51,172 nt of DNA from Verrucomicrobiia bacterium. Lineage in GTDB: Bacteria; Verrucomicrobiota; Verrucomicrobiia; Limisphaerales; UBA8199. The stretch's first letter is position 1, and the number at the start of each line of letters is the position of its first letter. Location of the stretch: assembly GCA_035946615.1 (NCBI GenBank), contig DASYZB010000086.1, forward strand, positions 1 through 51,172, read 5' to 3'. The position numbers and the translations under genes are program-made. This document shows, piece after piece, positions 15,986 through 38,854 of this stretch. The notes below the pieces were generated by a model that was not told where the DNA came from, did no database searches, and was given only the letters and a program-made list of their open reading frames with translations.

Positions 15986-16579
15986 TCAAGAGGCTTGCGC
16001 CAATTCGCCCAGCCCGGCGCGCAGTTGTAGCCGCGCGCGATAGATGCGAGTCTCGACTGCCTTGACCGAGCAATTGAGGATGGCAGCGATTTCCGCCTGC
16101 GACATCTCCTCGTACACGGCCAGAATAAGCGGTTGCCGCAACTCCTGTGGCAGCGCTGCAACGGCCTTTCGCACCGCGTTAGCGCGTTCCTGGGTTTGCA
16201 GGTTCTGGTCGGGCGCCCGGTCGAGAGAAGGGAGGCTGTCCTTTAGAGCCGCCTCGGACTGGCCGTTTTCGGCATCGAGAGAGACTTGAGGATGTCTCGA
16301 ACGCCAGCGGTAACGATCCCGGACCAGGTTGCTGGCAATAGCATAAAACCAGGTGGTGAACTTCTGGTTTGGATCGAATTTCGCCCTGTTTTGATAAATT
16401 CTGGCGAACGTTTCCTGGGCCAGATCGGCGGCGTCATCCTCATCTTGCAACGAGCGGAGGAGATAATGGAAAAGCTTCTGCGCATGGCGTGCCATCAAAG
16501 CGTTTAAAGCAGCTTCATGGCCCTCCGCCAATAGGGCCATGTCGCGCGTATCCAGTTCGTCCGTAGCGGGCTCGTTCAT
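15986..16579 (-). CDS. ECF-type RNA polymerase sigma factor (CnrH-like by context)
   Basis: 197 residues from the ATG at 16579. Region 2 is clear: LFHYLLRSLQDEDDAADLAQETFARIYQ, then KFTTWFYAIASNLVRDRYR. Region 4 follows a 35-residue linker: LPQELRQPLILAVYEEMSQAEIAAILNCSVKAVETRIYRARLQLR, a complete helix-turn-helix. There is no region 1.1 or 3, as in ECF sigma factors. The two genes upstream on the same strand encode a membrane anti-sigma-like protein and a periplasmic sensor-like protein, in the order of cnrY-cnrX-cnrH from Cupriavidus metallidurans. It is the natural candidate to read the shared promoter motif found in front of four units of the neighbouring metal block. Confidence 0.9.
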   Translation of the reverse strand: MNEPATDELDTRDMALLAEGHEAALNALMARHAQKLFHYLLRSLQDEDDAADLAQETFARIYQNRAKFDPNQKFTTWFYAIASNLVRDRYRWRSRHPQVSLDAENGQSEAALKDSLPSLDRAPDQNLQTQERANAVRKAVAALPQELRQPLILAVYEEMSQAEIAAILNCSVKAVETRIYRARLQLRAGLGELAQAS

Positions 16580-16585
16580 GGGCTC

Positions 16586-16710
16586 GTGGAGCGTAGAGCG
16601 TGGAGCGTGAGGTTGAGAGTTCCACGCTCAAAAGTATGCAGGTTCCACGCTCTGGACGGTCCACGCTCGACGCCCGGACGCTCAGCCGGTCTAACGCTCA
16701 CCACGCACCT
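16586..16710. repeat. GGAGCGT / ACGCTCC repeat cluster
   Basis: The stretch between the sigma factor gene and the sensor gene carries repeated gtggagcgt units in one direction (for example gtggagcgtagagcgtggagcgt at 16586-16608, in pieces) and several inverse copies ccacgctc downstream (16621-16665), ending in acgctcaccacgc. It can fold as nested hairpins. A related cluster lies at 24979-25045. It looks like a REP-type extragenic element and may reduce read-through from the sensor gene into the sigma gene. Confidence 0.6.
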
Positions 16711-17185
16711 CCGCCATGGGATGGTGGTGGCGGGTTTCCATTGCCGGGTCGTTCAGGAAGGCCTGCTGCTCGACCCACTCGAGGTAGCGCCGGCCCTCGT
16801 CGGGCGGCATCGCGCGGCTGACTTCCAAAAAATGGTTGAGCATTTCGGCCTCGCAGTCGGCTCGTGTCTTGGCGCGTTCGGCCAATAGGTTCTGGATTTC
16901 GGGCGTCACTGAGGATGCCTGGGAGAGTAATTGCTCGAGCTGCCGGTTTTGCTCGGCAATGCGCAGACAGCGTTGCGCGCACTGAGGCAAGTAGGCCGCG
17001 TGCAGCCTGGTAATGCGCGCGAACTCGGCGTCACTCAAGTGGAACTCCTTTTTCAACCAGGCCAACTCGGGTTGCGGCTGGCTGATCATGGCTCGGCACG
17101 GCGCCGTGCCGAAATAATAGAAGCCTGAAAAGGCCGCAGCGCAGACCAGCAGGCCCGACAATAAAATGAGTGCGCCCTTTTTCAC
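16691..17185 (-). CDS. Periplasmic metal-sensor-like protein (CnrX / Metal_resist type)
   Basis: 164 residues starting at a GTG at 17185 that overlaps the stop of the previous gene (GTGA). An N-terminal membrane anchor (ALILLSGLLVCAAAFSGFYYFG) is followed by an all-helical periplasmic domain: ELAWLKKEFHLSDAEFARITRLHAAYLPQCAQRCLRIAEQNRQ, then VTPEIQNLLAERAKTRADCEAEML and a helix with AMPPDEGRRYLEWV. This is the four-helix layout of the CnrX/CpxP/Spy-like heavy-metal resistance family, with several Cys (QCAQRC, DCEAEM) and a His-rich tail (ETRHHHP) that could bind metal. In the CnrYXH system the equivalent protein senses metal and controls release of the sigma factor; that role is inferred here from gene order. 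Confidence 0.75.
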   Translation of the reverse strand: MKKGALILLSGLLVCAAAFSGFYYFGTAPCRAMISQPQPELAWLKKEFHLSDAEFARITRLHAAYLPQCAQRCLRIAEQNRQLEQLLSQASSVTPEIQNLLAERAKTRADCEAEMLNHFLEVSRAMPPDEGRRYLEWVEQQAFLNDPAMETRHHHPMAEVRGER

Positions 17186-17529
17186 TGTTCTGAAGGAGCC
17201 TTGCGATAGGGATCAATGGACTGCACATAACGAGAACCCAAAGCCGCGTCCAGGCGGCTGGTTTCTCTCTGGGCGGCCCAGGAGCCGGCCATCACCCCCA
17301 GCACCAGCAAAACTGCCACATAGGAACAAGCGAATCGGGGCTGCGGCAGCGCGGCTTCAATGAGGCGGCTCAATGAGGCCAGGAAGGTTGGCGCGGGGCG
17401 AGCTTCCGTTCGAGCGATCCGCTGCCAGACTTGTTCTTCAAAACGCGGCGGGAGCGGGGCATCCACCACCCACTGCTTCAAGACTTTGTCCAGGGCGCGG
17501 TCCTTATCGGGTTCATGATTGGGTTTCAT
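17182..17529 (-). CDS. Single-pass membrane anti-sigma-like protein (CnrY-like by position)
   Basis: 115 residues from the ATG at 17529. A charged N-terminal cytoplasmic part (DRALDKVLKQWVVDAPLPPRFEEQVWQRIA) precedes one transmembrane helix (FACSYVAVLLVLGVMAGSWAA) and a short periplasmic tail. The N-terminal helix with the PLPPRFEEQVWQRI box resembles the sigma-binding part of small anti-sigma factors in these phyla. It overlaps the sensor-like gene by 4 bp and is followed by the ECF sigma gene, the same order as cnrY, cnrX and cnrH. The call rests on topology and context; no catalytic motif is expected. Confidence 0.7.
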   Translation of the reverse strand: MKPNHEPDKDRALDKVLKQWVVDAPLPPRFEEQVWQRIARTEARPAPTFLASLSRLIEAALPQPRFACSYVAVLLVLGVMAGSWAAQRETSRLDAALGSRYVQSIDPYRKAPSEQ

Positions 17530-17775
17530 ACAGCAAACGACAACACGAGATTACCATTCGCCACAGATGGGAACAACGTTTTGGATGGGCGCGCCGCAGC
17601 CACCGTGGCAAGCGGTTGCTCCCCATCCCGCCACGGAGTACACCTTCGCTTTGAAGGACATCCGGCCTTGGGACCGCTATGCAACCAGTCCTCGAGGTTT
17701 GTCGGTATGGTTCTGTGGGCTTTCATTATTTCGAGAGGCTAACTTTTGGCGCGCTTGGGATGTTTCTGACCCGGC
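17530..17775. other. Intergenic stretch ahead of the cnrYXH-like genes
   Basis: About 250 bp between the ASPK-repeat gene and the anti-sigma-like gene. I see no protein-like frame, no strong terminator and no copy of the GGGAT/CGTATT motif found ahead of the other units of the block. The three regulator genes may therefore have their own constitutive promoter here or be reached by read-through. Confidence 0.4.
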
Positions 17776-18180
17776 TTACTTAAGCGGCGCGATGATGACT
17801 GGCGCGGTGCGCTCATCCAGTTGTTCGCGAAATTTCGGGGACGCGGTGATGCCATCGGCGCCAGTCGGGCGATATGCGGAAACCGCCACCTCGGTAGTGG
17901 GCGCGCCGCTCACGACTACTTCCCGTTCGGCCAACATTTGGCGAAGTTTGGGCGAGGCGGTAAGGCCTTCCAACCCGGGTGTCCGATACGTAACCATGGC
18001 AGCGGCCACCGAGGGGCTTGCGAGCGCGGCAGCCGCTCTTTCGTTGAGCCTTTGGCGGACCTTGGGCGAGGCGGTAATGCCATCGTCTCCGGTGGGTTTG
18101 TATTGGGCGCTGGCCGCGCTGGCCAAGCTGAGAGTTGCGGCGACAGCCGCGGCGAACAGGACTTTATTCAGATTCTTCAT
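17776..18180 (-). CDS. Small secreted protein with three TASPKxR repeats
   Basis: 134 residues from the ATG at 18180, the first to give a proper signal peptide (MKNLNKVLFAAAVAATLSLA, cleavage after SAASA). The mature chain contains three related units: GDDGITASPKVRQRLNER (31-48), GLEGLTASPKLRQMLAER (69-87) and GADGITASPKFREQLDER (107-124), joined by Ala/Val-rich linkers, and it ends in APLK. I do not recognise a named family. The gene lies just downstream of cusA and has its own promoter-like motif at 18230-18254. A related protein with ASPR units and the same APLK end is encoded at 25121-25579, on the other side of the pump genes. Function unknown; a periplasmic role linked to metal stress is inferred from context. 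Confidence 0.75.
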   Translation of the reverse strand: MKNLNKVLFAAAVAATLSLASAASAQYKPTGDDGITASPKVRQRLNERAAAALASPSVAAAMVTYRTPGLEGLTASPKLRQMLAEREVVVSGAPTTEVAVSAYRPTGADGITASPKFREQLDERTAPVIIAPLK

Positions 18181-18229
18181 GGTTTTGTCTTTCTTTGGCG
18201 GCTTAACCCGCCGGTTTCTTCTGTTCTTT

Positions 18230-18254
18230 AATACGCCGCCGCAGTTGGAATCCC
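18230..18254 (-). promoter_or_regulatory. ECF-type promoter-like motif, copy 1
   Basis: On the minus strand GGGAT (18254-18250) is followed by 14 bp and CGTATT (18235-18230), then AAAGAACAGAAG. It lies about 50 bp before the ATG of the ASPK-repeat gene. The same arrangement occurs ahead of three other units of the metal block, which makes a shared sigma factor likely. Confidence 0.6.
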
Positions 18255-18276
18255 TCACCATTATTTCATGGCGCGG

Positions 18277-21200
18277 TCAAGCAGCAGGGCCTGGCAATGG
18301 TTCGCCTGGTTTCTTGAGCTCCTGCGAACGCCACAGGTAAAAGATGGCGGGATAGACCATCAATTCCATGATGGTCGAGGTGACGACGCCCCCCACCATC
18401 GGGGTAGCGATGCGTTTCATGACGTCGGCGCCAGCGCCGTGGCTCCACAAGATGGGGGCCAAGCCGGCAATGATGACGCACGCCGTCATGGCTTTGGGGC
18501 GGACACGCTTCACCGCGCCGTGGTAGATGGCGTCGCGGAGGTGGGCGAGGTTATGCATAAGACCCTTCTTCTGCCATTCGGCGTAAGCGAGGTCGAGATA
18601 GAGGAGCATGACGACCCCGGTTTCGGCGTCTAGACCGGCCAGGGCGATGATGCCGACCCAGACGGCGACACTCAGATTGTAGTGAAGGATGGCGAGAATG
18701 CCAATTGCCCCCACCAGGGAGAAAGGCACGGCCAGCATAACGACGGCGGTCTTGATGGCGGAGCGCGTGTTGAGATAGATGATCAGGATGATAAGGAGCA
18801 GAGTGAGGGGAACGACGAGCATGAGTCGTTGCTTGGCCCGCTGCATGTATTCGTACTGGCCGCTCCAAAAGATGTTGTAGCCGCTCGGCAGCTTGATTTG
18901 GCCCTTGGCGATGGCGTCGTTGACGGCGCGCATGGCCATCTGGACGTAGGTGCCGATGTCAATGTCCTTGATGTCCACATAAATCCAGGCGTTGGGGACC
19001 GCGGCTTCGCTCTTGATGCCCATCGGCGCCCGTAACACCTTCAGAGTGGCCAGTTGGCTCAAGGGCACCTGGGCGCCGGTGGGCGCGGGGATGATGATCT
19101 GGCGCAGGGCGCCCAGGTTTTCCCGGAAATCGCGGTTGTAGCGCAGGTTGACGGTGTAGCGCTCGAGACCCTCGACCGTGGTAGTGAGGGGCATGCCGCC
19201 CAACGCGACTTCCAGCACGTCTTGCACGTCGCCCACCTTGAGGCCGTAGCGGGCAATGGCGTCGCGGTCAATGTTGAACTCGATGTAGTTGCCGCCCATC
19301 GTGCGCTCCGCAAAGGCGCTCAAGGTGCCAGGAACGCCCTTCACCACCGCTTCGATCTCGGAGGCGACGAGCTCGAGTTCCGCCAGGTCCGGCCCGGCGA
19401 CTTTGATGCCGACGGGGGTCTTGATGCCGGTGGCCAGCATGTCGATGCGAGTCTTGATGGGCATGGTCCAGGCGTTATTCAGGCCGGGAAACTGGATCGC
19501 GGCGTTCATGGCGTCAGTGAGTTCATCAGGCGTGCGGCGGCGGTGGGCAATGACTTTGCCATCCGCGTCTTTGATGTCCACAGCGGGCCATTCTTCCTCG
19601 GGCTTGAGCATGATCGTGGTTTCAATCATATCCATCGGCGCCGGGTCGGTGGCCGTTTCAGCGCGGCCAATTTTGCCGAAGACGTGATGGACCTCGGGGA
19701 AGTTCTTGAGGATTTTGTCGGTTTGCTGGATGATGGCGCGGGCTTCGGTGACGCCGAGTCCGGGAAAGGTCGTGGGCATGTAGAGCAGGTCGCCTTCGTA
19801 GAGCGGGGGCATGAATTCGGAGCCGAGGTTCTGGTAGGGGAAGTATTTTCCAAGCTTAAACGCCCATTCCTTGACCGGGCCGTTGGGCAACAGGCGGGCG
19901 GCGAGTTTATTCCAGGGGAAAAACACCCAGACGATGAGGGCGGCGGCGGTGAAGACGACCAGCCATCTCCATTTGATGACGAAATCGATGACCGGGTGAT
20001 AGAGCCAGATCAGGAAGCGGTTGATGGGGTTTTTCTCCTCGGCCGGGATCTTGCCGCGGATGAAGAAGCCCATGAGGACCGGAGCCAGGGTGATGGAAAG
20101 GATTGCCGCCGCCGCCATGGAGTAGGTCTTGGTGAAGGCCAGCGGTTTGAACATGCGGCCCTCCTGCGCCTGGAGGGTGAAGACCGGCAGGAAGGAGACG
20201 GTAATGACCAGCAGCGAATAGAAGAGCGTGGGGCCGACCTCGACCGATGCATCGCGGATGATGTCCCAGTGAGGCTTCCTGCCCTGGTCGTGCTCCATGT
20301 GTTTGTGAGCGTTCTCAATCATGATGATGGCGGCATCGACCATGGCCCCGATGGCGATGGCGATGCCGCCCAGAGACATGATATTGGAGCTGATCCCCTG
20401 AGTGAACATGACGAGAAACGACATCAGCACGGCGATGGGCAGGATCAGAATGGCGACAAAGGCGCTGCGCAGGTGCATCAGGAAGGCAATGCAGACGAGC
20501 GCTACGACGATGCTTTCCTCGAGGAGCTTTTCTTCGAGTGTTTTAACGGCGCGCTGGATGAGCGCGCTGCGGTCATAGGCGATGCTGTATTTCACGTCCG
20601 GCGGCAGGCCCTTCATCGCGGCGTCGAGCTTCTTCTTCACGTCGAGGACGACCTGGCGGGCGTTGGCGCCGTAACGGACGATAACGACGCCGCCGACGGT
20701 TTCACCTTGGCCGTTGAGTTCGGCGATGCCACGCCGCATGTCCGGTCCGAGTTCCACGTTGGCCACCTGCCCGAGGAGGATGGGCACGCCGTTGTTGCCG
20801 ACACTCACAGCAACCTTCCTCAAGTCGTCCAGGGCGTGGACGTAGCCCCGCACGCGCAGGATGAATTCCTTTTCGGCCAACTCGATGGAGCGTCCGCCGA
20901 CTTCGCCGTTGCTGCGCTGGACGGCCATCGCCACGTCCGAGATGGAAAGGTTGTACGCGCGCAGTTTGGTCGGATCCACGGTGACCTGGTACTGCTTCAC
21001 GAACCCGCCGATAGAGGCGACTTCCGACACCCCTTCGACCGAGGCCAACTGATAACGCAGGTACCAATCCTGCATGGAGCGCAGTTGGGCCAAGTCGCGG
21101 TTGGTCGAATTGATGGAATACATGAAGGCCCAACCGACGCCCGTGGCATCCGGCCCCAGTGCGGGCGACACACCCTTGGGCAGGCGGTCGCTCAAGCCGC

Positions 21201-21543
21201 TGAGGTATTCCAACACGCGACTGCGCGCCCAATAGGGGTCGGTGCCGTCCTGAAAAATCACATAGACGAACGAAAAGCCGTAGAACGAATAGCCGCGCAC
21301 GACGGTCGCCTTGGGCACCGAGAGCATCTTGGTGGTAATTGGGTAGGTAACCTGGTCCTGGACGATCTGCGGTGCCTGGCCGGGCCATTGCGTGTAAATG
21401 ATGACCTGCACATCCGAGAGATCGGGGATGGCGTCGAGCGGGATGTTTTTGAGCGCATAGACGCCGCCCAGGACGAGGGCGATCGTTCCCAGCAGGACGA
21501 TGAACTTGTTGTTCAGCGAGAAATCGATGATGCGTTTGAGCAT
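18277..21543 (-). CDS. cusA: CusA/CzcA-type heavy-metal RND permease
   Basis: 1088 residues from the ATG at 21543, preceded by AAGGAG at good spacing; in-frame codons further upstream overlap the cusB-like gene in the wrong frame and are not used. It begins MLKRIIDFSLNNKFIVLL and shows the HME-RND hallmarks: LDAIPDLSDVQVIIYTQWPGQAPQ in pieces, GGIAIAIGAMVDAAIIMIENAHK in TM4, and NRFLIWLYHPVIDF near mid-protein. The Met triad known from E. coli CusA is only partly kept: Met is present in TRIDMLATG, the second position is Leu (ARYGLKV), and the third Met is shifted by one (LRAPMGIKSE). The pump exports mono- or divalent metal through the cusB/cusC partners encoded just upstream. The exact ion cannot be told. 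Confidence 0.9.
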   Translation of the reverse strand: MLKRIIDFSLNNKFIVLLGTIALVLGGVYALKNIPLDAIPDLSDVQVIIYTQWPGQAPQIVQDQVTYPITTKMLSVPKATVVRGYSFYGFSFVYVIFQDGTDPYWARSRVLEYLSGLSDRLPKGVSPALGPDATGVGWAFMYSINSTNRDLAQLRSMQDWYLRYQLASVEGVSEVASIGGFVKQYQVTVDPTKLRAYNLSISDVAMAVQRSNGEVGGRSIELAEKEFILRVRGYVHALDDLRKVAVSVGNNGVPILLGQVANVELGPDMRRGIAELNGQGETVGGVVIVRYGANARQVVLDVKKKLDAAMKGLPPDVKYSIAYDRSALIQRAVKTLEEKLLEESIVVALVCIAFLMHLRSAFVAILILPIAVLMSFLVMFTQGISSNIMSLGGIAIAIGAMVDAAIIMIENAHKHMEHDQGRKPHWDIIRDASVEVGPTLFYSLLVITVSFLPVFTLQAQEGRMFKPLAFTKTYSMAAAAILSITLAPVLMGFFIRGKIPAEEKNPINRFLIWLYHPVIDFVIKWRWLVVFTAAALIVWVFFPWNKLAARLLPNGPVKEWAFKLGKYFPYQNLGSEFMPPLYEGDLLYMPTTFPGLGVTEARAIIQQTDKILKNFPEVHHVFGKIGRAETATDPAPMDMIETTIMLKPEEEWPAVDIKDADGKVIAHRRRTPDELTDAMNAAIQFPGLNNAWTMPIKTRIDMLATGIKTPVGIKVAGPDLAELELVASEIEAVVKGVPGTLSAFAERTMGGNYIEFNIDRDAIARYGLKVGDVQDVLEVALGGMPLTTTVEGLERYTVNLRYNRDFRENLGALRQIIIPAPTGAQVPLSQLATLKVLRAPMGIKSEAAVPNAWIYVDIKDIDIGTYVQMAMRAVNDAIAKGQIKLPSGYNIFWSGQYEYMQRAKQRLMLVVPLTLLLIILIIYLNTRSAIKTAVVMLAVPFSLVGAIGILAILHYNLSVAVWVGIIALAGLDAETGVVMLLYLDLAYAEWQKKGLMHNLAHLRDAIYHGAVKRVRPKAMTACVIIAGLAPILWSHGAGADVMKRIATPMVGGVVTSTIMELMVYPAIFYLWRSQELKKPGEPLPGPAA

Positions 21544-21557
21544 AAACTCCTTGCCGC

Positions 21558-23345
21558 TCAGTGCTGATTTTCGGGCATGACCATCCCTTTGGGCATGGCT
21601 TCGCTGCCGGACGGGACGGATTTGGGCAGTGACGGGGCCTCCATCACTGGGATGAGCGTCATACCGCACTTGGGGCACTTGCCCGGTTTGCTTTCGTGAA
21701 CGTCGCTGTGCTCGGGCATGGGACACGTATAATAGAGCAGCTTGCCGCCGGGCTGAAGCTTTTGCAGGGTGGCAGCCGTGACGGGCACGAGGGTCATGCC
21801 GCAGATGGGGCACTTGCCCGGATGATCATATTCAATCGAGACGTGTTCCGGCATCGGGCAGATGTATTTGACCACGGGCGGTTGCGCCGGCGGCTTGGTG
21901 GGGGGCTTTGCCTCTCCCGGGACGACGTTGGTGGCTTCGGCTGAGCCGGGCATGATTTCGGCCGGCTTGCCCGGCTCGCGCATCTTCAGGATGGCTTCGC
22001 GGAGTTGGCTTTCGGAGTCGAGCAGGAACTGGCCGGAAATCACGATGCGCTCGCCGGCTTTCACTCCACTGATGACCTGGTAGGTGTCGTTCTCTGCTTG
22101 TGGCCCCAGGGTGACAGTCCGTGGGTCAAACTTCCCGCCTTCCAGCGCCACAAAGACGGTATTCTTCTCGCCGCTGCGCAGGATGGCCATGTCGGGAACC
22201 AGCACCGCGGAAGGCTCCAACTCAGATATAACCTGAACGGTGGCGAACATGCCCGGCTTAAGGAAGTAGCCCGGGTTGTGAAACTCCATGCGCACCTGAG
22301 CCGTGCGGGTTTTCTCATCCACGTTCGGATAAACATAGGTCACTCGCCCGCGAAATTCGCGGTCCGGCAGGTAGTCCAGCGTCACGGTCGCCTCCTGGCC
22401 CAGCTTGATATACACCAGGTCGTTCTCGTAAATCTGCGCCTGCACCCAGACCAGGCCCAGGTCGGCCAGCCGGTAGATTTTCATGCCCGGCTCTACCATT
22501 TGGCCTTCCACAACGTCTTTCTCGATCACGAACCCATCCTGGGGCGCGAGGATGCGCAGCGTCTTGCTCGGTTGGCGGCTGCGCTCCAATTCCGAAATCT
22601 GTTGGTCGGAAATATCGAAGAATTTCAGTTTGGTCAGGGCGCTGGTTCGGAGCGCGGCAGCTCCGGGCGCGTTGGTGCTTTGTTCGAGGGCCAAGAGGTA
22701 CTCCCGCTGGGCGCTGTAAAGTTCAGGTGAATAAATCTCAAACAGCGGCTCACCGCGCATTACCAATTGGCCCGTGGCGCTTACAAAGAGTTTCTCGATC
22801 CAGCCTTTGAACTTGGTGGTCACGTCCGCCAAAGTAGTCTCGTTGTAATTGATGATGCCCACGGTGCGGATGGTTCGGCGCAGCGGCCCTTGGGTCACCG
22901 GCGCGGTGCGCAAGTCCATGTCCTGCATTGTGACCGGGTCAATCGAGATCAAGCCCGATTCCTCAGAACCTGCCGCCGCGCTCTCATAAACGGGAACCAT
23001 GTCCATCCCCATGCTGTCTTTGGCGGCGACCGGGCTGGTTTCCCCCGGCATCATGGTGGATTTGTAGTAAACTATCTTGCGCGGGCCGGTCGGAGCGTTG
23101 GTCGATGCGGGGTGGGGCGAGGCTAGCTGCTTGCGGACGGGAGTGAGCCTCATGCCACAGATGGGGCAATTGCCGGGATGGTCCTGCACGACCTGCGGGT
23201 GCATGCCGCAGGTGTAAAGGGTTTTGGCCGCCTCGGCGGCATGCATGTGGGCGGCGCCAGTGAACAAAGCGGTGGTCCCACCCAACAGCGCCACAGCTAA
23301 AGCGAGGAGAATCGAGGACTTTGTGCGTTTATTTCCAACTTTCAT
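21558..23345 (-). CDS. cusB: CusB-type membrane fusion protein with three heavy-metal-binding domains
   Basis: 595 residues from the ATG at 23345 with a signal sequence (SSILLALAVALLGGTTALF). Residues about 44-70 form a heavy-metal-binding domain (YTCGMHPQVVQDHPGNCPIC...GM), then comes the usual degenerate copy (YYKSTMMPGE...MGMDMVPVYE). The adaptor core follows: IKLYV-like GWIEKLFVSATGQ, a helical hairpin and barrel domains. Unusually, the C-terminus has two more complete domains, at about 491-522 (YICPMPEHVSIEYDHPGKCP) and 537-567 (YTCPMPEHSDVHESKPGKCP), and a Met/His-rich end. It links the CusA-like pump to the CusC-like channel and probably feeds metal to the pump. The gene starts 73 bp after cusC. 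Confidence 0.88.
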   Translation of the reverse strand: MKVGNKRTKSSILLALAVALLGGTTALFTGAAHMHAAEAAKTLYTCGMHPQVVQDHPGNCPICGMRLTPVRKQLASPHPASTNAPTGPRKIVYYKSTMMPGETSPVAAKDSMGMDMVPVYESAAAGSEESGLISIDPVTMQDMDLRTAPVTQGPLRRTIRTVGIINYNETTLADVTTKFKGWIEKLFVSATGQLVMRGEPLFEIYSPELYSAQREYLLALEQSTNAPGAAALRTSALTKLKFFDISDQQISELERSRQPSKTLRILAPQDGFVIEKDVVEGQMVEPGMKIYRLADLGLVWVQAQIYENDLVYIKLGQEATVTLDYLPDREFRGRVTYVYPNVDEKTRTAQVRMEFHNPGYFLKPGMFATVQVISELEPSAVLVPDMAILRSGEKNTVFVALEGGKFDPRTVTLGPQAENDTYQVISGVKAGERIVISGQFLLDSESQLREAILKMREPGKPAEIMPGSAEATNVVPGEAKPPTKPPAQPPVVKYICPMPEHVSIEYDHPGKCPICGMTLVPVTAATLQKLQPGGKLLYYTCPMPEHSDVHESKPGKCPKCGMTLIPVMEAPSLPKSVPSGSEAMPKGMVMPENQH

Positions 23346-23418
23346 ATTTGAATTTGTTCGGATTTCGAAATTCGAAATTCGGAATTTAGTGGCCGTCCGC
23401 CAAGACTTTGGGTTTCTT
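23346..23418. repeat. AT-rich TTCGAAATTCGAAATTC repeat between cusC and cusB
   Basis: The gap between cusC and cusB contains gatttcgaaattcg / aaattcggaattt (23361-23387), where TTCGAA occurs twice and the stretch is nearly self-complementary. Similar TTCGAAATTCG runs are common extragenic sequences. It may form a hairpin that tunes relative expression of the channel and the adaptor. No Shine-Dalgarno sequence is visible before the cusB ATG. Confidence 0.4.
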
Positions 23419-24837
23419 TTACATGCCACCGCTGGTTTTTCTTGGTGCCGAGGAGTTGCCCCGGCTCATGCCGGCGCTTGTGGGACTCAGCGAGGCGCCA
23501 CTCGGGGGCATGCCCTGAACGATCAGCGACAATTCCGCCAGGACCACTTCGCGCTGTGTGCTTGCCTCGATCTGGTCCAACTCGAACCCAAGCAGCGTGC
23601 GCTCGGAGTCGGTCAGATTGAAGAAATCGATCTGGCCGGCCAGGTAACCGGAGCGGGCCACTTCGAGCGACCGCCGCGCCTTGGGCAGGAGTTGGTCGTT
23701 CAGCAGCGCCAGATTGCGGCTCGCTTCGCGATAAAGGTATGATCTGGCGGCCCAATCGGCCGCCAGCGCAATTTGCTCGCTCGACAATTGCGCCTGAGCA
23801 GAACGCTTATTGGCCTGGGCCTCGGCAATTTGCGCGGCGATCTTGTCGCGCCAGATGGGAAGTGACATGGTGCCCGGATTTCCCGGCAAACGATAGAGAG
23901 TTGGGTCGGTCTTTGCGTCACCCATGAAACCCAGGGTGAAGTCGGGCAGGCGGGACTTTTGGGCGAGGAGAATCGAAGCCTCGGCGGCGCGGACCTCCGC
24001 TTCGATGGCCTTGAGCCGCGTGTTTTGCGCCAGCGCCATGTCGAAGAGCTTGTCCGCGGTAAGGTCCAATGGCGTGGATTCAAAACGCTGAGGCATCGGC
24101 GGAGCCGGGTCCTCGGCTTTCAAACCCAGGGCGGCTTTAAACTGTGCCACCAGCGCGTTGCGCGAGTCCTCGAGGTTGGCAATGTCCGTGCGCAGCCGGT
24201 CCTCTTCGATCTGAGCGCGCAGCACGTCTTGCAGGGTGACCTTGCCCACTTCGTTTTGGGCGAGAGCTAGCTTTTCCAGGTCCGCCAGCAGGCCAAGCGT
24301 TTCCTGGTTGACCCGGAGTTTCTCCGCTAAAAAGTAGAGTTGGTAGTAGGAGCGCTTCACGTCGAACGCGCTCTCCAGTACAGTGGATTGAAAAGCGAAG
24401 TATTTGGCCTGGCTTTGGGCTGAGGCAATTTGCGCCCCCACTCGGAGTTTATCCGGCCAGGGGATGGTCCCCATCAGCCCGGGCATGATCGAAGTGACGA
24501 TGTTCTGGATGTCCATCTGGAAGGTGAACTGGGGGTCGGGCAAAGAGCGCGCTTGGGTGATGCGTTCGATGGACGCGAGCCAATCGTAGTAGGCTGTTTC
24601 GACCTTTGGCTGGTTTAACAAGGCATAAGCGAGATAATTGCTGAGGCTGGAACTGGCCGAGAGCTCAGGCAGCACCGGCTTTTCGCCATGGGGGCGATAA
24701 TCGGCGGCCACGCTTTGGGCCTGGCGGCGAGCTTCCTTCTCGCCTTTGGTCGGCACCCCTTTGCAGCCCGAAAGAATCAGGGCCAGAGCCGCGAGGCCCG
24801 CCATTGCGGCGTTGCGCGTCGGTTTCAAACTAATCAT
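23419..24837 (-). CDS. cusC: CusC/TolC-type outer-membrane efflux lipoprotein
   Basis: 472 residues from the ATG at 24837; a TTG at 24846 is less likely. A lipoprotein signal (AALALILSGC) gives a lipidated Cys. Two homologous halves of TolC type follow, each with long helices: LAYALLNQPKVETAYYDWLASIERITQ and LFDMALAQNTRLKAIEAEVRAAEASI. Such proteins form the trimeric outer-membrane duct of tripartite pumps. The gene is first in the cusC-cusB-cusA order on the minus strand, and a promoter-like motif lies about 36 bp before it (24873-24897). The C-terminus ends in a Gly/Ser-rich tail with a GGM end. Confidence 0.85.
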   Translation of the reverse strand: MISLKPTRNAAMAGLAALALILSGCKGVPTKGEKEARRQAQSVAADYRPHGEKPVLPELSASSSLSNYLAYALLNQPKVETAYYDWLASIERITQARSLPDPQFTFQMDIQNIVTSIMPGLMGTIPWPDKLRVGAQIASAQSQAKYFAFQSTVLESAFDVKRSYYQLYFLAEKLRVNQETLGLLADLEKLALAQNEVGKVTLQDVLRAQIEEDRLRTDIANLEDSRNALVAQFKAALGLKAEDPAPPMPQRFESTPLDLTADKLFDMALAQNTRLKAIEAEVRAAEASILLAQKSRLPDFTLGFMGDAKTDPTLYRLPGNPGTMSLPIWRDKIAAQIAEAQANKRSAQAQLSSEQIALAADWAARSYLYREASRNLALLNDQLLPKARRSLEVARSGYLAGQIDFFNLTDSERTLLGFELDQIEASTQREVVLAELSLIVQGMPPSGASLSPTSAGMSRGNSSAPRKTSGGM

Positions 24838-24872
24838 AAAATTCAAATGCGATATTTTGCATCGTCTCCTCT

Positions 24873-24897
24873 ACTACGCCGAAAGGTGCGCCTTCCC
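24873..24897 (-). promoter_or_regulatory. ECF-type promoter-like motif, copy 2, ahead of cusCBA
   Basis: On the minus strand GGGAA (24897-24893) is followed by exactly 14 bp and CGTAGT (24878-24873). It differs by one base in each half from the other copies but keeps the spacing and position, 36 bp before the cusC start codon. Confidence 0.5.
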
Positions 24898-24978
24898 TCT
24901 CGGAATTCACAGAAAGAAATGAAGTGCGCGCAGCTCGATGAATCGTGCGGGCGAAAGCAGCATTTGCCTGATGATGTC

Positions 24979-25045
24979 GGAGCGTGGAGCGTCAGGGTGG
25001 GTGGAGCACGGCGTACGTTTCAACGCCCTCACGCTCTACGGTCCT
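24979..25045. repeat. Imperfect inverted repeat of the GGAGCGT family
   Basis: The left arm begins ggagcgtggagcgtcaggg (from about 24980) and an inverse copy, ccctcacgctctacggtcc, ends near 25045; most positions pair. The element lies between the ASPR-repeat gene and the cusC promoter motif, on the downstream side of the former. It shares the GGAGCGTGGAGCGT unit with the cluster at 16586-16710. A role in ending transcription of the ASPR gene is possible. Confidence 0.55.
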
Positions 25046-25120
25046 CCCGCTCACGCCGATCCATGCCGGCCGGTTCGGGATATGAAACTGCTTTTGCCCA
25101 CTCCTTTCGTCAGCCAGTGC

Positions 25121-25579
25121 CTACTTGAGGGGAGCCACCTGAATGGAATCATTTGTGTAGCCTCGGGCGAGCCAGGGAAACTCTTCTTTCACTCTCGGGC
25201 TTGCGGCCCAGGCCTGGTCCTTGGTTACCCGATTGAATTCATTCACGCTCACGATCGGCTTTGCAGTGGTTAGAGTCGGCGACTGCCCGCCGCGACCCAA
25301 TGCGGGGAAATCTTCACGCACTCGCGGACTGGCCGCCAAGGCGCTGTTCTTTCTGATGTACGAGGGAACCCTGTTGGCGCGCGCCACTGCTCCAGTTGAG
25401 GTCTGGGACTGCCTGGTCAGCCATTGGAATTCCTCCAGCCCGTGCGGGCTGGCAATGACCGGCCCGTTTACAATTGCAGATGCCTTGGCTGCCAGAGCCG
25501 CCAGGTTATCGGCCCGGACATTGGTCGCAAATGCCGCGACGATTGTCGCGCTCAAGAGAAGTGATTTTGTCATTTTCAT
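25121..25579 (-). CDS. Small secreted protein with ASPR/ASPH repeats
   Basis: 152 residues from the ATG at 25579 (a second ATG at 25573 is possible) with a signal peptide (SLLLSATIVAAFATNVRA). Three related units are seen: ASPHGLEEFQWLTR (from 43), ASPRVREDFPALGR (from 83) and ASPRVKEEFPWLAR (from 126); the protein ends in IQVAPLK. It is clearly related in design to the ASPK-repeat protein at 17776-18180 (same ASP-basic-x-R/K unit and same APLK end), though the repeat flanks differ. No known domain is recognised. A promoter-like motif lies 57 bp before the start. The pair flanks the cusCBA genes, so a periplasmic part in metal handling or envelope stress is inferred. Confidence 0.75.
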   Translation of the reverse strand: MKMTKSLLLSATIVAAFATNVRADNLAALAAKASAIVNGPVIASPHGLEEFQWLTRQSQTSTGAVARANRVPSYIRKNSALAASPRVREDFPALGRGGQSPTLTTAKPIVSVNEFNRVTKDQAWAASPRVKEEFPWLARGYTNDSIQVAPLK

Positions 25580-25635
25580 ATCATTGGCAATTTTAAGTTT
25601 TCTGCGGGCGATCCTCTCGCGCCCGTCTGTTCATT

Positions 25636-25661
25636 AATACGCCGGGACTGATCCGCATCCC
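25636..25661 (-). promoter_or_regulatory. ECF-type promoter-like motif, copy 3
   Basis: On the minus strand GGGAT (25661-25657), 15 bp, CGTATT (25641-25636), then AATGAACAGACG. It lies 57 bp before the ATG of the ASPR-repeat gene. The downstream AACAGA is shared with copies 1 and 4. Confidence 0.6.
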
Positions 25662-25714
25662 TTTGACATTCTTTGCCAAAACCTCACCCTTTTTTGCCAC
25701 GGCAGGAGCAACGG

Positions 25715-25970
25715 CGGCGAATAGATTGGGGACGGAATCACGGTGGGCGGAGCTGGGTATCGATTGGCCGTAGGTGACGCCGTTGACGCCCATGAGCATG
25801 TCCGCCTGCGGACCCTCATGCGGCCGAAATAGGGCCCGCCGATTCGATTTCCACATAGCTGGTTGCGTTCTGGCGGCTCTGATGACAGTTCATGCAAAGG
25901 GCTGGCTCACCGGCATTTGTGACAGTCGTTCCGTCATGCAGGGTAAATGGCGGCCAAGGTCCGAAGCAGG
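25715..25970 (-). pseudogene. Frameshifted remnant of a multihaem cytochrome c-like gene
   Basis: On the minus strand one frame reads FTLHDGTTVTNAGEPALCMN, then CHQSRQNATSYVE, with one CxxCH haem site (CMNCH, about 25889-25903). The frame then shifts and the neighbouring frame continues RPHEGPQADMLMGVNGVTYG, then QSIPSSAHRDSVPNL. In cytochrome c3-like proteins a second CxxCH normally comes just after such a SAH...VPN segment, but here that site is lost. There is no start, and the copy-3 promoter motif begins where the homology ends. This is a decayed fragment, judged by motif pattern only. Confidence 0.5.
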
Positions 25971-26083
25971 TGCGGGTAGTTTGGTGGGCGTGGTCGTTCC
26001 GTGCGGCTCATGGCGGCCTTTCAAATTTCACGCGGAACCGCGCTATCCTGTGATTGCCGCGAGTCGCAGCGGGATTCCTGGTC

Positions 26084-26124
26084 AAAAAGAAAAGCGGCGA
26101 GAAGCTTGGAGAAACCTCGCCGCC
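26084..26124 (-). terminator. Rho-independent terminator of the Cys-rich protein gene
   Basis: On the minus strand an 8-bp perfect stem, CTCGCCGC (26101-26094 side) pairing with GCGGCGAG (26123-26116 side), encloses a 14-nt loop and is followed by TTTTCTTTTTG. It begins about 20 bp after the stop codon at 26144. This is the clearest intrinsic terminator in the window. Confidence 0.8.
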
Positions 26125-26143
26125 CTCTGGCCGAGCGTGTTCT

Positions 26144-26608
26144 TTACTTCTTTTCTTCCATGCCAGCCGTTGAACCACTGCCCGGCTTCGTCGCGCAGCA
26201 AAAGACCGAACTGCTGCCGCACTTTTCGCAGACATGCTTGACTTCATTTTTCCGCCCATGTTTGCCGGCTGCGATGACCTTGATAAAGGAGTCGCAGCCC
26301 GGGCAGAGATGTTTCTCGCCCACCGTCATGATTTTAATGTGTCCCTTTTCGGTGGTGACATTATGGATCATCACCGACTTGCACTTGGAACACACCATCG
26401 CGATGGTGTCACCGGGCTTGAGCGCCTCCGCCTCCGCCGTAGTCTTGATGCCCTGGAGCTTGAGCATGTGGGTTGCGCCCTTCATGTCGCTAATGTCATC
26501 CTGCGCCCGTGCCGCGTTGGGCAGTCCGACAGCAAGAGCCGCCGCCAGCGCCAGGCCATAGCATGGGCGCAGGCGGCCCTTCAGGTCCCTGATAGTCATT
26601 TTCTTCAT
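26144..26608 (-). CDS. Secreted Cys-rich protein with three CxxC pairs
   Basis: 154 residues from the ATG at 26608; a longer in-frame reading to 26938 adds about 110 residues that do not look like protein. A signal peptide (YGLALAAALAVGLPNAARA) is followed by GDTIAMVCSKCKSVM (Cys73/76), GEKHLCPGCDSFIKV (Cys102/105), VKHVCEKCGSSSVFCC (Cys127/130 and 137/138) and a Met/Gly/Ser tail. The arrangement is a zinc-ribbon or metal-trapping fold; I recognise no named family. It is followed by a strong terminator, so it is transcribed alone. A promoter-like motif of the block lies at 26937-26961, about 330 bp upstream. A periplasmic metal-binding role is inferred from the Cys pairs and the neighbours. 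Confidence 0.75.
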   Translation of the reverse strand: MKKMTIRDLKGRLRPCYGLALAAALAVGLPNAARAQDDISDMKGATHMLKLQGIKTTAEAEALKPGDTIAMVCSKCKSVMIHNVTTEKGHIKIMTVGEKHLCPGCDSFIKVIAAGKHGRKNEVKHVCEKCGSSSVFCCATKPGSGSTAGMEEKK

Positions 26609-27358
26609 GTTATTGTCTTTCGTTTGTTTTGTTTTGGTTTCGATTTCGATTCTCAGCGGATGTCCTATCACGAGGGGGGGGTGGTTCAATGCGCAACGAA
26701 AGTTGAGCGCGCCATAATGGCTGGCTTCGTGAGCGAACGCGAGACCCCTGAATAAGCATTCGCGCAAGGCGCCTTTCGGTGCCTTGAGTCCATGTTGGCT
26801 GCCACGGCGCAGCCAGAGCCGCCTTCCATCCGGACTGGTTGGAACCACTCGCGCGATGGGAATCACGACCGATTTGTCTGCCCACCTGCTTGGTATGATT
26901 CTCAAAGTGCTCGTCTTCATGTTTCGTTCTGTTTCCAATACGCCGCGACAGCGCGCATCCCTCAGAATTTCGGTTCGGTTCTAATAATAAGGCGCAGCGC
27001 CTGGGGTTTGACACGTTCGGACCAAGCCCTGGGAAGCAATTCGCGTTGCCGAAACAATAACTGATTAAGGGCTTCGGAATCCTCTGCCGCGCCCGGCCGT
27101 TTTCATCAACCCCCCTCTGCAAAAGACCCCGGCGCGGTTTAGGGCGCCAATTGATCAAATCATCGAGCGCGACGATCAATCCGTGGTTTCCGGTCTCCGT
27201 ATTAGGACGATATGGACCCGGGCGGGGAATGAGTTGGCCAATTCTTGCATAGCCTTTGGCAATCCGTGGGGAGTCAGGAGCAAGCCAAAAGCCGTTAATC
27301 AGCATTATTAGCGGGCGAAAAAACATAAAGCCGACAACACATTTAGACAATAATCACT
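26609..27358. other. Long divergent intergenic region with a promoter motif and hairpins
   Basis: About 750 bp without a convincing gene, between the Cys-rich protein (-) and the Met-rich HAF protein (+). It holds the copy-4 promoter motif (26937-26961) and, 17 bp after it, an ATG at 26920 opening a frame that runs into the Cys-rich gene; its predicted peptide lacks a signal and looks random, so it may be a leader or a decayed gene. Hairpins are seen at 26766-26787 (AAGGCGCC/GGTGCCTT) and about 26793-26815 (GGCTGCC/GCAGCC). Nothing is recognised from 27000 to 27358. Confidence 0.5.
26937..26961 (-). promoter_or_regulatory. ECF-type promoter-like motif, copy 4
   Basis: On the minus strand GGGAT (26961-26957), 14 bp, CGTATT (26942-26937), then GGAAACAGAACG. 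It points towards the Cys-rich secreted protein gene, with an ATG only 17 bp downstream but the real start about 330 bp away. Confidence 0.55.
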
Positions 27359-28948
27359 ATGCGCTTCGTAAACCAAATCGACCAAATCGCAGTCAGCCGC
27401 CCCGCCTCTCCTTTTCTGCGGTGGAACCTGGCAGCCGCGCTTGTTCTCTTCGGACTGTGCTGGCCGGCCCGCGGTCAGTTTTATGCCGTGACCGACCTCG
27501 GCACTCTTGGCGGCGCCAACGGCATGGCCTACGGCATCAACAATCATGAGCAAATTGTGGGAGCAATGCAGACCGGCTTGGGCGGCTATCACGCCTTCAT
27601 GTTCGATGGCGGCCGCATGGTGGATCTCGGCACGATGGGCGGGAGCAACAGTTGGGCTTATGGCGTTAACGACAGCGGTTGGATGGTCGGCGGGGCGCAG
27701 ATGGCTTCGACCAACATGCGCGCTTTCCTCTGCGCCAACGCGCTGATGAATCCCGCAATGATGGATTTGGGCGCCCTTGGCGGCAGCAATAGCGCCGCGT
27801 GGATGATCAACATGCGCGGGGATATTGTCGGTTGGGCACTGACGACCAACGGCAGCCAGCATGCGTTTTTCATGACCAATTTTGCGGCCGGCGACATGAT
27901 GGACCTGGGCACATCTGGCGGCACTAATTCGGCAGCGTATTGCATCAATAGCAACCGCATGGTGGTCGGGGGCGCGATGATGTCCAACGGCGTGATGGAG
28001 CCGATCATGTCCACCAATGCCCTATTCGGCAGTTCGAGCATGATGGCGATGGGAATGGGCAGCATGGGCGCATCGGGCGGCCAATCGTGGTACGTCAACG
28101 ACATGGGAGACACCGCCGGGCAGGCAATGATGTCCGGCGGCAACTTCCATGCCTTCGTCTCCAGCGGCGGAGGCATGATGGGGCAAACGGTGGTCGATCT
28201 CGGTACGCTGGGCGGGACGAACAGCGCAGCCTATTGCCTGAACAACGCGGGCACAGCCGTTGGGATGGCGCAACTGGCCGCAGGAATGCCGCACGCATTC
28301 ATGGTAACCAACGCTCTGGGAGGGATGGGCGGAATGGCTCGCATGACAGACTTGAACAACTTGATTCCAACCAACAGTGGCTGGGAACTGATGGTGGCGC
28401 GCGGCGTGAACGCGGCGGATCAAATTGTGGGCTGGGGAATGCGCGCCGGACACACGAATGCGTTTCTGCTCACGCCAGTGTCCGCTCCGGTCACGATGGT
28501 GGCGGGTCCGTCGCCGCGAGTCGTCGGGCCGGGAACTTCAGTTACACTCGGGATGCAGATGAGCGCCAGTGAACCGCTGACTTATCAATGGCTCCTAAAC
28601 GGGATGCCCATTGAGGGCGCCACCAACGCAACATGCACGCTTTCTGGCATGAGCCTGGCAAATGCCGGTCAGTACACCGTCACGGCGAAAAACGTCGTGG
28701 GCACCGTGGCCAACTCATCGGCCGCCGTCAGCATGTTCAGTATGCAGTTCACCGGTGTAACCTTGCGCCTGACGCTCGCGGCGCCTGCCGGAAGCCACTT
28801 CAGGATTGATTACTCCGACATGTTAGGCGGCGCCGTGAATTGGCTGGCGATGACCAACTTCACCGTGATGGGCTCGATGACCCAGGTGAGCGACACGCCT
28901 CCCCAGGGTTTGCGCGCTCGATTCTATCGGGCGGTGATGGTTCCATGA
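27359..28948 (+). CDS. Secreted HAF-repeat plus Ig-like protein, exceptionally rich in methionine
   Basis: 529 residues with a signal peptide (hydrophobic LAAALVLFGLCWPARG). Residues about 41-375 are HAF repeats: DLGTLGG, DLGTMGG, DLGALGG, DLGTSGG and again DLGTLGG, each followed by a short N-rich turn and a HAF or AFM strand (YHAFMFDGG, QHAFFMTN, FHAFVSSGG, PHAFMVTN). Residues about 380-460 form an Ig-like domain (TYQWLLNGMPIEGATNATC, then NAGQYTVTAKN), and the tail ends RARFYRAVMVP. By my count about 52 of 529 residues are Met, around 10 percent, spread through both domain types and often doubled (MM). HAF repeats are extracellular beta-propeller-like units of unknown role. The gene is divergent from the metal block. 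Confidence 0.88.
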   Translation: MRFVNQIDQIAVSRPASPFLRWNLAAALVLFGLCWPARGQFYAVTDLGTLGGANGMAYGINNHEQIVGAMQTGLGGYHAFMFDGGRMVDLGTMGGSNSWAYGVNDSGWMVGGAQMASTNMRAFLCANALMNPAMMDLGALGGSNSAAWMINMRGDIVGWALTTNGSQHAFFMTNFAAGDMMDLGTSGGTNSAAYCINSNRMVVGGAMMSNGVMEPIMSTNALFGSSSMMAMGMGSMGASGGQSWYVNDMGDTAGQAMMSGGNFHAFVSSGGGMMGQTVVDLGTLGGTNSAAYCLNNAGTAVGMAQLAAGMPHAFMVTNALGGMGGMARMTDLNNLIPTNSGWELMVARGVNAADQIVGWGMRAGHTNAFLLTPVSAPVTMVAGPSPRVVGPGTSVTLGMQMSASEPLTYQWLLNGMPIEGATNATCTLSGMSLANAGQYTVTAKNVVGTVANSSAAVSMFSMQFTGVTLRLTLAAPAGSHFRIDYSDMLGGAVNWLAMTNFTVMGSMTQVSDTPPQGLRARFYRAVMVP

Positions 28949-29028: not shown

Positions 29029-29895
29029 TTAGGGCGCTGCCTTTGGCGCGGATGGGAGCTGTGGTCCCAAAACCAGCCTGCCCCTGGCTGAATCAATCGT
29101 GACGGTCTCAAATTGACTAAGCAGGCCATTCCCCACAAGTCCGGCCTCGCCCTCAAAAATTGGGTTGGCGTGCAAACCCGTTTCCACATCGCCCAGAATT
29201 TCCGCACCAATTTTTACAGCCGTCCTTGTCTGCGGAATTCCCAGCTCTGCCAATCCCACCGCCACCTTGCGGCTGCAATCCTTTGGGCTGACGTCTCGAG
29301 TAACCCACTGCAAGGGCGTGGCGCACCCGGTATCCACCCGAAACCACCGGGCCCTTTTCCCGCCGACGCTCGCCTTGACTCTGATTCCGCAGCGCCGCGC
29401 GTCCAACGGCACAACGTCACCCGCGGTCGCCGTGCCGGAAGCAAGTAACCGGACCTTCGATTCGCGAAAATCGATCTGCACTGCTCTGTCTTTAAAGAAC
29501 CCCGCCCCAATCAAACCATCCACTCGGCGCGCGCATGAGCGGCTCAGCTTCCCCAAATCAAGAGCCAGCAGGCGGTTTGGCAGGGTCACCTCGTTGGCTT
29601 TGGCCCAGCGCGTCCCGGTCCAGAACCCATCCATCGAAACCCCGACCCCGCGCACCTCGGCTCGCTGGCCGAGCGGGAGACCCAGTTCCTTCGCGGTCTG
29701 CAGATTCACCACGCTCGCCTCCGCCCCGCTATCGAGCAGGAAATTCAATACCCTCCCGGATTCCGGGACCTGGACTTTCACCCAAAGCAAGCCTTCGCGG
29801 AACTCAAACGGGAATTCGCCTCTCGGCACCACATCAGCGTGACCTTGAATCAGCCAACTCGAGCACAATAAGCCGCAAAACAGCATCCGCCGCAT
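29029..29895 (-). CDS. Secreted retropepsin-like aspartic protease
   Basis: 288 residues with a signal peptide (MLFCGLLCSSWLIQGHA); the ATG at 29886 is an alternative start. The first half has the classic clan AA motif FLLDSGAEASVVN, followed by a helix (AKELGLPLG) and a strand that ends in a GLIGAGFF-like turn. The second half has a second Asp motif, RVDTGCATPLQW, and ends VGNGLLSQFETVTID-like, a pseudo-repeat of the first half. So one chain carries two DSG/DTG lobes, as in a single-chain pepsin-like layout made of bacterial retropepsin units. It probably acts in the periplasm; substrate unknown. It converges on the Met-rich HAF gene. Confidence 0.78.
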   Translation of the reverse strand: MRRMLFCGLLCSSWLIQGHADVVPRGEFPFEFREGLLWVKVQVPESGRVLNFLLDSGAEASVVNLQTAKELGLPLGQRAEVRGVGVSMDGFWTGTRWAKANEVTLPNRLLALDLGKLSRSCARRVDGLIGAGFFKDRAVQIDFRESKVRLLASGTATAGDVVPLDARRCGIRVKASVGGKRARWFRVDTGCATPLQWVTRDVSPKDCSRKVAVGLAELGIPQTRTAVKIGAEILGDVETGLHANPIFEGEAGLVGNGLLSQFETVTIDSARGRLVLGPQLPSAPKAAP

Positions 29896-30237
29896 TGCCG
29901 CCTTTCGGCAAAATCAATGCCATAAACGCCGCGAGGCGCTTTATATTGCGCATCAGTGACTTAGCTGACTTCCGAACCCTCTGGGAACACCGAATGATTG
30001 TTTCGTTGTGGCCACGCGGGTTAAAAAGCTCCATGCGAACGCGGACAAAGTTTGCTGGAAACGTCGGAACCAACGAAGGCAATTCAGCGGCTGCATCGGC
30101 CCGCAGCCGACAAGATTATCCCTGAACGGCGACTGGCGTGGTCGCCAGAACTCGTGCATTGCCACGATACTCGACCGTGGCTGGTGTCTGGCCGATGATT
30201 CCGCATTGCGCAAAAATGAGCGCCAAAATGAACACAG
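29896..30237. other. Intergenic stretch, no gene seen
   Basis: About 340 bp between the aspartic protease start and the NifS remnant. Open frames here give random-looking peptides without start signals or known motifs. I see no tRNA and no strong promoter. Confidence 0.4.
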
Positions 30238-30351
30238 CTTTGCCTCAAACCGATGGGCGCGCCGGAAGCCATCGGCCTGGGCGCGGTGCGCTTCAGCCTG
30301 GGAAGATGGACCACCACAGAAGAACTGGACCATGTTCTCGGCCTTCTCCCG
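30238..30351 (+). pseudogene. 3' fragment of a cysteine desulfurase (NifS/IscS family)
   Basis: The plus frame from about 30241 reads LKPMGAPEAIGLGAVRFSLG and then RWTTTEELDHVLGLLP. The RFSLG-x-TT-EE segment and the closing hydrophobic helix are the C-terminal end of NifS/IscS-like cysteine desulfurases. A TGA stands directly upstream in frame, and the PLP-lysine and catalytic Cys regions are absent. The homology stops at 30351, where a transglutaminase frame begins three bases later in another frame, so this is a deletion junction. Confidence 0.55.
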
Positions 30352-30353
30352 CG

Positions 30354-30899
30354 AACGAAACCTTCACGGCTATCGCACAGCAAGTCACACGAGGCAAAAC
30401 GACGGACCTGGCCCGCGCTCGCGCGCTCTACGACCACGTCATCGAAAAGGTGCGCTATGCCCGGTACGGCTCGGGTTGGGGCGTCGGTGACGCGGTGTAT
30501 GCCTGCAATGCACATTCGGGCAATTGCTCGGATTTCCATGCCTACTTCATCGCGCTGGCGCGCTCCATCGGCATCCCGGCCCGCTTCGCCATTGGCGCAG
30601 CCATTCCTTCCGAGCGCAATGACGGCGGCATTGATGGCTACCACTGTTGGGCTGAGTTCTTCGCCGACGGCAAATGGGAGCCCGTGGACATCAGCGAAGC
30701 GAACAAAAACTCCAGCCTGGCGAATTATTACTTCGGCCATCACCCGGCGAACCGGTTCGAGTTGAGCAAGGGCCGCGACTTGGTCGTGGAACCCGGACCT
30801 GCCTCCGGCCTAATCAATTTCCTCGCCTACCCGGTCCTCGAGGTGGATGGCAAGGCGGTCCAGGTGCAGACGGAGTTCCTTTTTCGACGTCATCGCTAA
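30354..30899 (+). pseudogene. 5'-truncated transglutaminase-like protein gene
   Basis: The frame is recognisable from about 30354 (NETFTAIAQQVTRGKTTDLA) to the stop at 30899. The catalytic triad is complete: Cys in HSGNCSDFHAYFIALARSIG, His in GYHCWAEFF and Asp in EPVDISEANK, followed by the usual ANYYFGHHPANRFELSKGRD. Homologous secreted proteins have a signal peptide and about 100 more residues before this point; here these are replaced by an out-of-frame NifS end. The frame is open back to 30138, so a truncated product could be made, but without a signal. I call it a remnant; a working cytoplasmic domain is possible. Confidence 0.6.
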
Positions 30900-35610: not shown

Positions 35611-35724
35611 AACGAAATCGATCGGGCCGCCACCCTAAACCCGGAGTGCCGGCCGTCTGCGCCCAGCGAGTCAAGGATTTTCACAGTGATGATCTGGTTT
35701 TGACTCATGGCAAAGCTTCTTTCG

Positions 35725-36027: not shown

Positions 36028-36041
36028 AGTCACCGCTTAAA

Positions 36042-38828: not shown

Positions 38829-38854
38829 GGTTGACTAATTCGCGCATAACGTTC

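Follow-up and report, generated by a model that had tools for sequence, protein, structure and literature searches.

Which metal does a CnrX-like sensor answer to when the pump beside it is not of the nickel and cobalt kind but resembles a copper and silver exporter? This question is raised by a locus in a 51,172-nt stretch of DNA, hereafter the window (positions 1 to 51,172 of the forward strand of contig DASYZB010000086.1, assembly GCA_035946615.1, a Verrucomicrobiia bacterium of the order Limisphaerales). On its minus strand, genes for an anti-sigma-like protein, a CnrX-like periplasmic sensor and an extracytoplasmic function (ECF) sigma factor lie beside a CusCBA-type resistance-nodulation-division (RND) pump and several small secreted proteins. 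We propose, from comparison of genes and genomes, that this module is probably a copper- or silver-responsive variant of the CnrYXH mechanism with a regulon of its own. An earlier note on this DNA had described a CnrYXH-like module linked to a CusA-like pump and new accessory proteins in one undescribed regulon. It is right in essentials, and each gene that it named is an open reading frame on the minus strand where it had been placed.

Between 29.9 and 16.0 kb, in the reading order of the minus strand, the genes encode a protease, a Cys-rich protein, ASP2, CusC, CusB, CusA, ASP1, the anti-sigma, the sensor and the sigma factor; ASP1 and ASP2 belong to a small secreted family that we name SPR. 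The last three genes are codirectional and ordered as in CnrYXH of Cupriavidus metallidurans: an anti-sigma-like protein of 115 residues (17182–17529), a putatively membrane-anchored sensor of 164 residues (16691–17185), whose GTG start overlaps the stop of the anti-sigma gene, and a sigma factor of 197 residues (15986–16579; PF04542 and PF08281, with Sigma70_r2 at E 4e-16 and r4_2 at E 2.5e-16). Of 196 genomes sampled from the order, 83 have a relative of the sensor; these loci were pooled with the best 80 of 91 matches from a scan across species, each represented by one genome, which gave 112 dereplicated loci. At a distance of up to 1.5 kb from the sensor gene, 111 of the 112 have an anti-sigma gene, 107 a sigma gene and 106 both. 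This conserved linkage exceeds chance, and the gene order that the earlier note had read from a single locus holds across the family. Variants exist: in L057 the sigma gene is located behind cusA, and L051, on a contig shared with L124, has one sigma gene between two tandem anti-sigma/sensor pairs. Where the titles of the best 80 of 91 loci give a taxon, it is Verrucomicrobiota except for L189 (Proteobacteria), whose sensor relative lacks C69 and C73, beside which no anti-sigma was found and which may be a mis-binned contig.

Compared by sequence alone, the sensor appears only weakly similar to CnrX. It matches PF13801 (Metal_resist) at E 4e-6, slightly below the curated cut-off, and a 35-row profile of the family returned NccX first (E 1.2e-4), then a coiled coil (0.0014) and CnrX (0.005). 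With the predicted structure of the sensor as query (predicted local distance difference test, pLDDT, 91.5), Foldseek ranks 1 to 15 are held exclusively by CnrX and NccX chains, with target template-modelling scores between 0.72 and 0.81 (CnrX) and of 0.57 (NccX). With the same model, CnrX reaches a VIA Z score of 10.8, ahead of the next family (9.1), ZraP (8.9), NccX (8.8) and Spy (up to 8.0). An N-terminal anchor followed by a CnrX fold is the best match for the modelled protein, at middling scores; gene order, profile and modelled fold together bear out the likeness to CnrYXH.

The metal site tells a different story from the fold. The metal ligands of CnrX are H42, H46, E63, H119 and M123, of which E63 and M123 appear in PDB titles. 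The sensor does not carry this set: in the NccX profile alignment, H42 corresponds to L41, H46 to K45 (K, R or Q in relatives), E63 to H62, H119 to H118 and M123 to V122. Cysteines, by contrast with these exchanged positions, are near-invariant, C69 being kept in 110/111 relatives, C73 in 111/112 and C111 in 112/112, and H62 (106/111), M115 (107/112) and H118 (100/112) are mostly kept as well. M126, R133 and Y134 were part of the pattern that seeded the genome-collection scan, so their conservation is biased and that of the cysteines is not. Judged from these alignments, the putative metal site is rebuilt relative to CnrX, with three cysteines joined by H62, M115 and H118. By its metal chemistry, such a Cys-rich site would suit Cu(I) or Ag(I).

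Gene order and fold would be the same in an ordinary Co- or Ni-sensing CnrYXH member with a pump of wider range. Ni/Co signalling by CnrX requires M123, however (PMC7689651), and this position is V in 108/112 relatives, with mostly L at the H42 position and R, K or Q at the H46 position. Because the ligand positions and the pump, which carries the Cu(I) methionine triad, disagree with it, we dropped this reading as first choice, and the affinities of the sigma factor also count against it; we regard it as highly improbable. When searched against solved chains only, the sigma factor is closest to the sigma-H factor 6in7 (E 2.5e-41), SigW (6.8e-39) and RpoE (7.9e-33), ahead of CnrH (4e-26). It stops about 10 residues past region 4 and has no Cys-rich extension.

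The anti-sigma-like protein is assigned from its position beside the sensor and from a match to NF052375 (E 7e-4) that is weak and far below the cut-off of that model. By eye it has a single hydrophobic stretch, and its short tail has a conserved RYVxxVDPY (alignment A2, 31 rows). CnrY is classed as a class II anti-sigma (PMC7406223).

The case for copper or silver is strengthened by the pump. The window CusA (18277–21543) scores 1125 bits against Escherichia coli CusA and 485 against the CzcA-like pump ZneA, exceeds the cut-off of the CusA/CzcA family model (TIGR00914, 1148 bits) and matches all three Cu(I)-site methionines of E. coli CusA, M573, M623 and M672, the Cu(I)/Ag(I) triad described in PMC8092243. 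With it are a CusB-like adaptor (21558–23345; PF16576 at E 1.5e-79 and three HMBD metal-binding stretches, PF19335) and a CusC-like outer-membrane factor (23419–24837; PF02321 at E 3e-39), the starts of both picked by eye. The triad is present in 44 of the 49 CusA-like proteins of the loci, upholding the earlier assignment of the pump; the five misses comprise four others and a separate RND protein at 42.0–38.9 kb of the window. Further RND, adaptor and outer-membrane factor genes lie at 30985–42013 on the minus strand, and it is the RND protein at 38855–42013 that lacks the triad.

Among 55 well-flanked loci (more than 8 kb on either side), pump genes are found in 39, genes for Cys-rich, TRASH or DUF3347 proteins in 36, SPR genes in 27 and P-type ATPase genes, recognised by motif, in 4; a CusA-like gene above 300 bits is present in 35. 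The 5.6-Mb genome that contains the window has 19 pump-model matches, fragments and other RND pumps included, so that by our estimate a random 20 kb would seldom have one.

Our data further suggest that the pump and small-protein genes share a promoter with the regulators, a feature unseen by the earlier note that supports its view of a single regulon. A repeat search for words common to the regions ahead of both SPR genes and the Cys-rich gene points to the consensus TGAGGGAT-N14-CGTATTA as a candidate promoter. The window has three strong copies and one weak copy, all on the minus strand: GTGAGGGAT-N14-CGTATTAA (18228–18258), 49 nt ahead of the ASP1 start; a copy with spacing 15 (25636–25661), 57 nt ahead of ASP2; CTGAGGGAT-N14-CGTATTGG (26935–26965), about 330 nt ahead of the Cys-rich start; and the weaker GAGAGGGAA-N14-CGTAGTAG (24871–24901; score 11.5 at spacing 14), about 35 nt ahead of cusC.

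Chance matches were considered and rejected by means of other spacings, reversed patterns and a whole-genome scan. GGGAT-N12-17-CGTATT occurs three times in the window against 0.05 expected from shuffles. In the whole genome, GGGAT-N13-16-GCGTATT has five matches (reversed control 1), three of them at this locus; the other two were set aside because they lie within open frames of 170 and 324 codons. Allowing up to two mismatches adds four further places (reversed control 1), one of which is one of these in-frame sites. Exact halves GGGAT and CGTATT gave 14 sites at spacing 14 in 59 loci, 0 to 2 at the other 15 spacings and 0 in the reversed control. A weighted scan of the 112 loci at a score of at least 14 gave 117 sites at spacing 14, while 13 other spacings yielded between 0 and 7 apiece; since its position weights derive from 18 exact sites in these very loci, the comparison of spacings is the fair control. 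Lowering the score to 13 gave 119 sites over 77 of the 112 loci. Twelve of the 196 genomes contain GAGGGAT-N14-CGTATTA, each a single time, and every copy has a CnrX-like gene no more than 5 kb away; the reversed pattern occurs once.

The motif also varies with the sigma factor. In 63 loci a site precedes the triad and the sigma sequence could be read; the −10 element begins with C in 37 of them and with another base in 26, and on the sigma tree this label takes 2 changes versus 20.3 in shuffles, with none of 500 as low. The pattern fits recognition by the sigma but is no proof of it. Scans of this kind reveal a conserved motif rather than its binder, and the motif could be the site of another regulator, for instance a DNA-binding repressor, instead of a promoter for this sigma. 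We give that reading very little credence: the two half-sites are unlike and held at one fixed spacing, their variants track the sigma tree, the exact motif is found solely near the module, and script-picked starts in the SPR cluster fall 44 to 60 nt past the motif in 36 of 42 genes.

Reading behind 120 sites (the 119 and the N15 copy of the window), a script with a crude signal-peptide rule for starts returned 95 small proteins. The SPR cluster accounts for 42 of them, TRASH/YHS-like or DUF3347-like proteins for 18 and parts of the anti-sigma for 12; a further 6 are Cys-rich and form one cluster, 6 are of another Cys-bearing type and 11 stand alone, some of these last surely not being genes. 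The TRASH and DUF3347 labels come from one scanned protein each, the former below its curated cut-off and the latter above; TRASH/YHS-like and DUF3347 proteins occupy the same place in relatives. Members of the SPR family show, by eye, a signal peptide and contain short S-P-[RK] words; 25 of the 42 end in APLK. ASP1 (17776–18180), between cusA and the anti-sigma gene, has three TASPKxRxxL repeats and the C-terminus IAPLK; ASP2 (25121–25579), ahead of cusC, has AASPRVxExFPxL-type repeats and ends in VAPLK. In a Pfam scan of 20 proteins, 13 of them from the window, neither ASP protein nor the Cys-rich secreted protein (26144–26608) matched a family over the cut-off, in keeping with the idea that the accessory proteins are new. 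SPR is almost confined to the surroundings of the module: in the 196 genomes, 38 of its 43 matches have a CnrX-like gene at most 5 kb away, and of the 31 genomes that encode SPR, 29 also have a CnrX-like gene. The SPR model showed no confident fold (pLDDT 53, from a shallow alignment of 11 rows), and disorder is possible.

A retropepsin-like aspartic protease (29029–29895, minus strand; PF13650 at E 1e-7) is a module gene elsewhere and lies outside the block drawn by the earlier note, the named genes of which were correctly placed. In the window its gene is about 11 kb upstream of ASP1; in relatives it is usually directly ahead of the SPR gene. Among 96 loci with 3 kb of upstream sequence, the protease is present in 17, of which 16 also have SPR, and loci without it divide into 23 with and 56 without SPR (Fisher p 7e-7). 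The intergenic gap is 69 to 197 nt in 14 of the 16 pairs, and in the 17th locus, L070, the SPR cluster is represented by a divergent protein. In the 196 genomes, 25 protease genes occur in 24, with 16 of the 25 within 5 kb of the sensor gene and the window copy 12 kb off; the protease is bound less closely to the module than SPR. A tentative and rather unlikely idea is that the two form a secreted protease-substrate or protease-inhibitor pair tuning the sigma pathway: the protease would recognise the APLK tail or the SP[RK] repeats, and newly induced SPR protein that occupies it would feed back on cleavage of the anti-sigma or of a metal-damaged envelope protein. The substrate role for SPR is a guess.

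Between the protease and the remaining genes lies a Met-rich repeat protein (27359–28948, plus strand; weak DUF3466 and immunoglobulin matches), presumably HAF-like. Relatives of it adjoin the module in L037, L039, L131 and L146, and in L131 its gene is preceded by a weak copy of the motif. A transglutaminase-like protein (PF01841, E 1e-25) is encoded at 30138–30899 on the plus strand. Short intergenic repeats of the GAGCGTGGA type are found at 16596–16668, between the sensor and sigma genes, and at 24980–25010.

We envisage the following mechanism. At rest, a membrane-spanning anti-sigma would keep the ECF sigma at the inner membrane. Beside it, the CnrX-fold sensor would take periplasmic Cu(I) or Ag(I) through C69, C73 and C111 with H62, M115 and H118, and the resulting change would be relayed to the short conserved tail of the anti-sigma, which may be periplasmic, freeing the sigma. 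The freed sigma would then read TGAGGGAT-N14-CGTATTA and induce its own operon (SPR protein, anti-sigma, sensor and sigma), the CusCBA pump and a set of small secreted proteins that includes several Cys-rich ones.

Several observations weigh against this proposal. None of the Foldseek E-values for the sensor model is below 0.001; helical bundles match widely, the VIA Z of 10.8 is below the advised 13, and that of NccX is no better than those of several unrelated families. Among solved structures, the anti-sigma has no match to CnrY and no useful match of another kind. The motif is missing at a score of at least 13 from 35 of the 112 loci, kinship alone could group the −10 label on the sigma tree, and the promoter of the Cys-rich gene is farther from its start than usual. 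The two SPR proteins of the window have no cysteine and ASP1 has no histidine either, so that a metal role for them is unsupported. Finally, 11 of the 55 well-flanked loci, including L040 of the window's own family, have no pump, Cys-rich/TRASH/DUF3347 or P-type ATPase gene. The earlier note had held that regulators standing apart from metal genes would count against it; this is the case in part, and the motif is present in 8 of these 11 loci.

Loci of this kind, three near-invariant cysteines placed in the periplasm and a fold that may be common to stress proteins such as Spy, CpxP and ZraP could also belong to a thiol or envelope redox sensor, in which a disulfide of the cysteines is made or broken and the pump and secreted proteins are just one part of a general envelope stress response. 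That H62, M115 and H118 are mostly conserved too, and that the commonest neighbours are Cu(I)/Ag(I)-type pumps and Cys-rich, TRASH or DUF3347 proteins, makes this unlikely in our view, and we retain a copper- or silver-responsive variant of CnrYXH as the preferred reading.

Should this reading be correct, ligand exchange has shifted the CnrX scaffold from Ni/Co towards soft metals, and the metal selectivity of periplasmic sensors becomes directly testable. The motif would also serve as a candidate promoter of high specificity for an ECF family of Verrucomicrobiota. No prior description of the system turned up in the literature that we searched, and only to that extent does the word undescribed in the earlier note stand.

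The system shares features with several known ones. As in CusCBA of E. coli, there is an RND pump with a methionine triad, a CusB-type adaptor and an outer-membrane factor; whereas E. coli CusCBA is under the CusRS two-component system, the pump described here is probably ruled by an ECF sigma, and SPR and Cys-rich proteins are added. Bufferin systems are linked to ECF sigma factors. Bufferins are described as small secreted proteins linked to copper stress (PMC12452194), and to that extent they resemble the small proteins of this module; as differences, cysteine is absent from the window SPR proteins, and none of the 20 proteins scanned with Pfam gave a DUF2282 or MNIO match. CorE of Myxococcus xanthus is likewise a copper-linked ECF sigma, and the review of copper signalling that we consulted names it as the copper ECF sigma, working without an anti-sigma, which is replaced by its own Cys-rich C-terminal extension (PMC10141476). 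Here, sensor and anti-sigma are separate proteins and the sigma is not of the CorE type. The closest parallels are CnrYXH and NccX, which have the same order of anti-sigma, anchored CnrX-fold sensor and ECF sigma and the same link to an RND metal pump. The module differs from CnrYXH in a three-cysteine metal site that lacks the M123, H42 and H46 positions, in a sigma for which, among solved chains, other ECF factors are closer relatives than CnrH, and in its Cu/Ag-type pump, small secreted proteins and shared promoter. Its mechanism is CnrYXH-like, yet by metal site and sigma it is not a member of CnrYXH.

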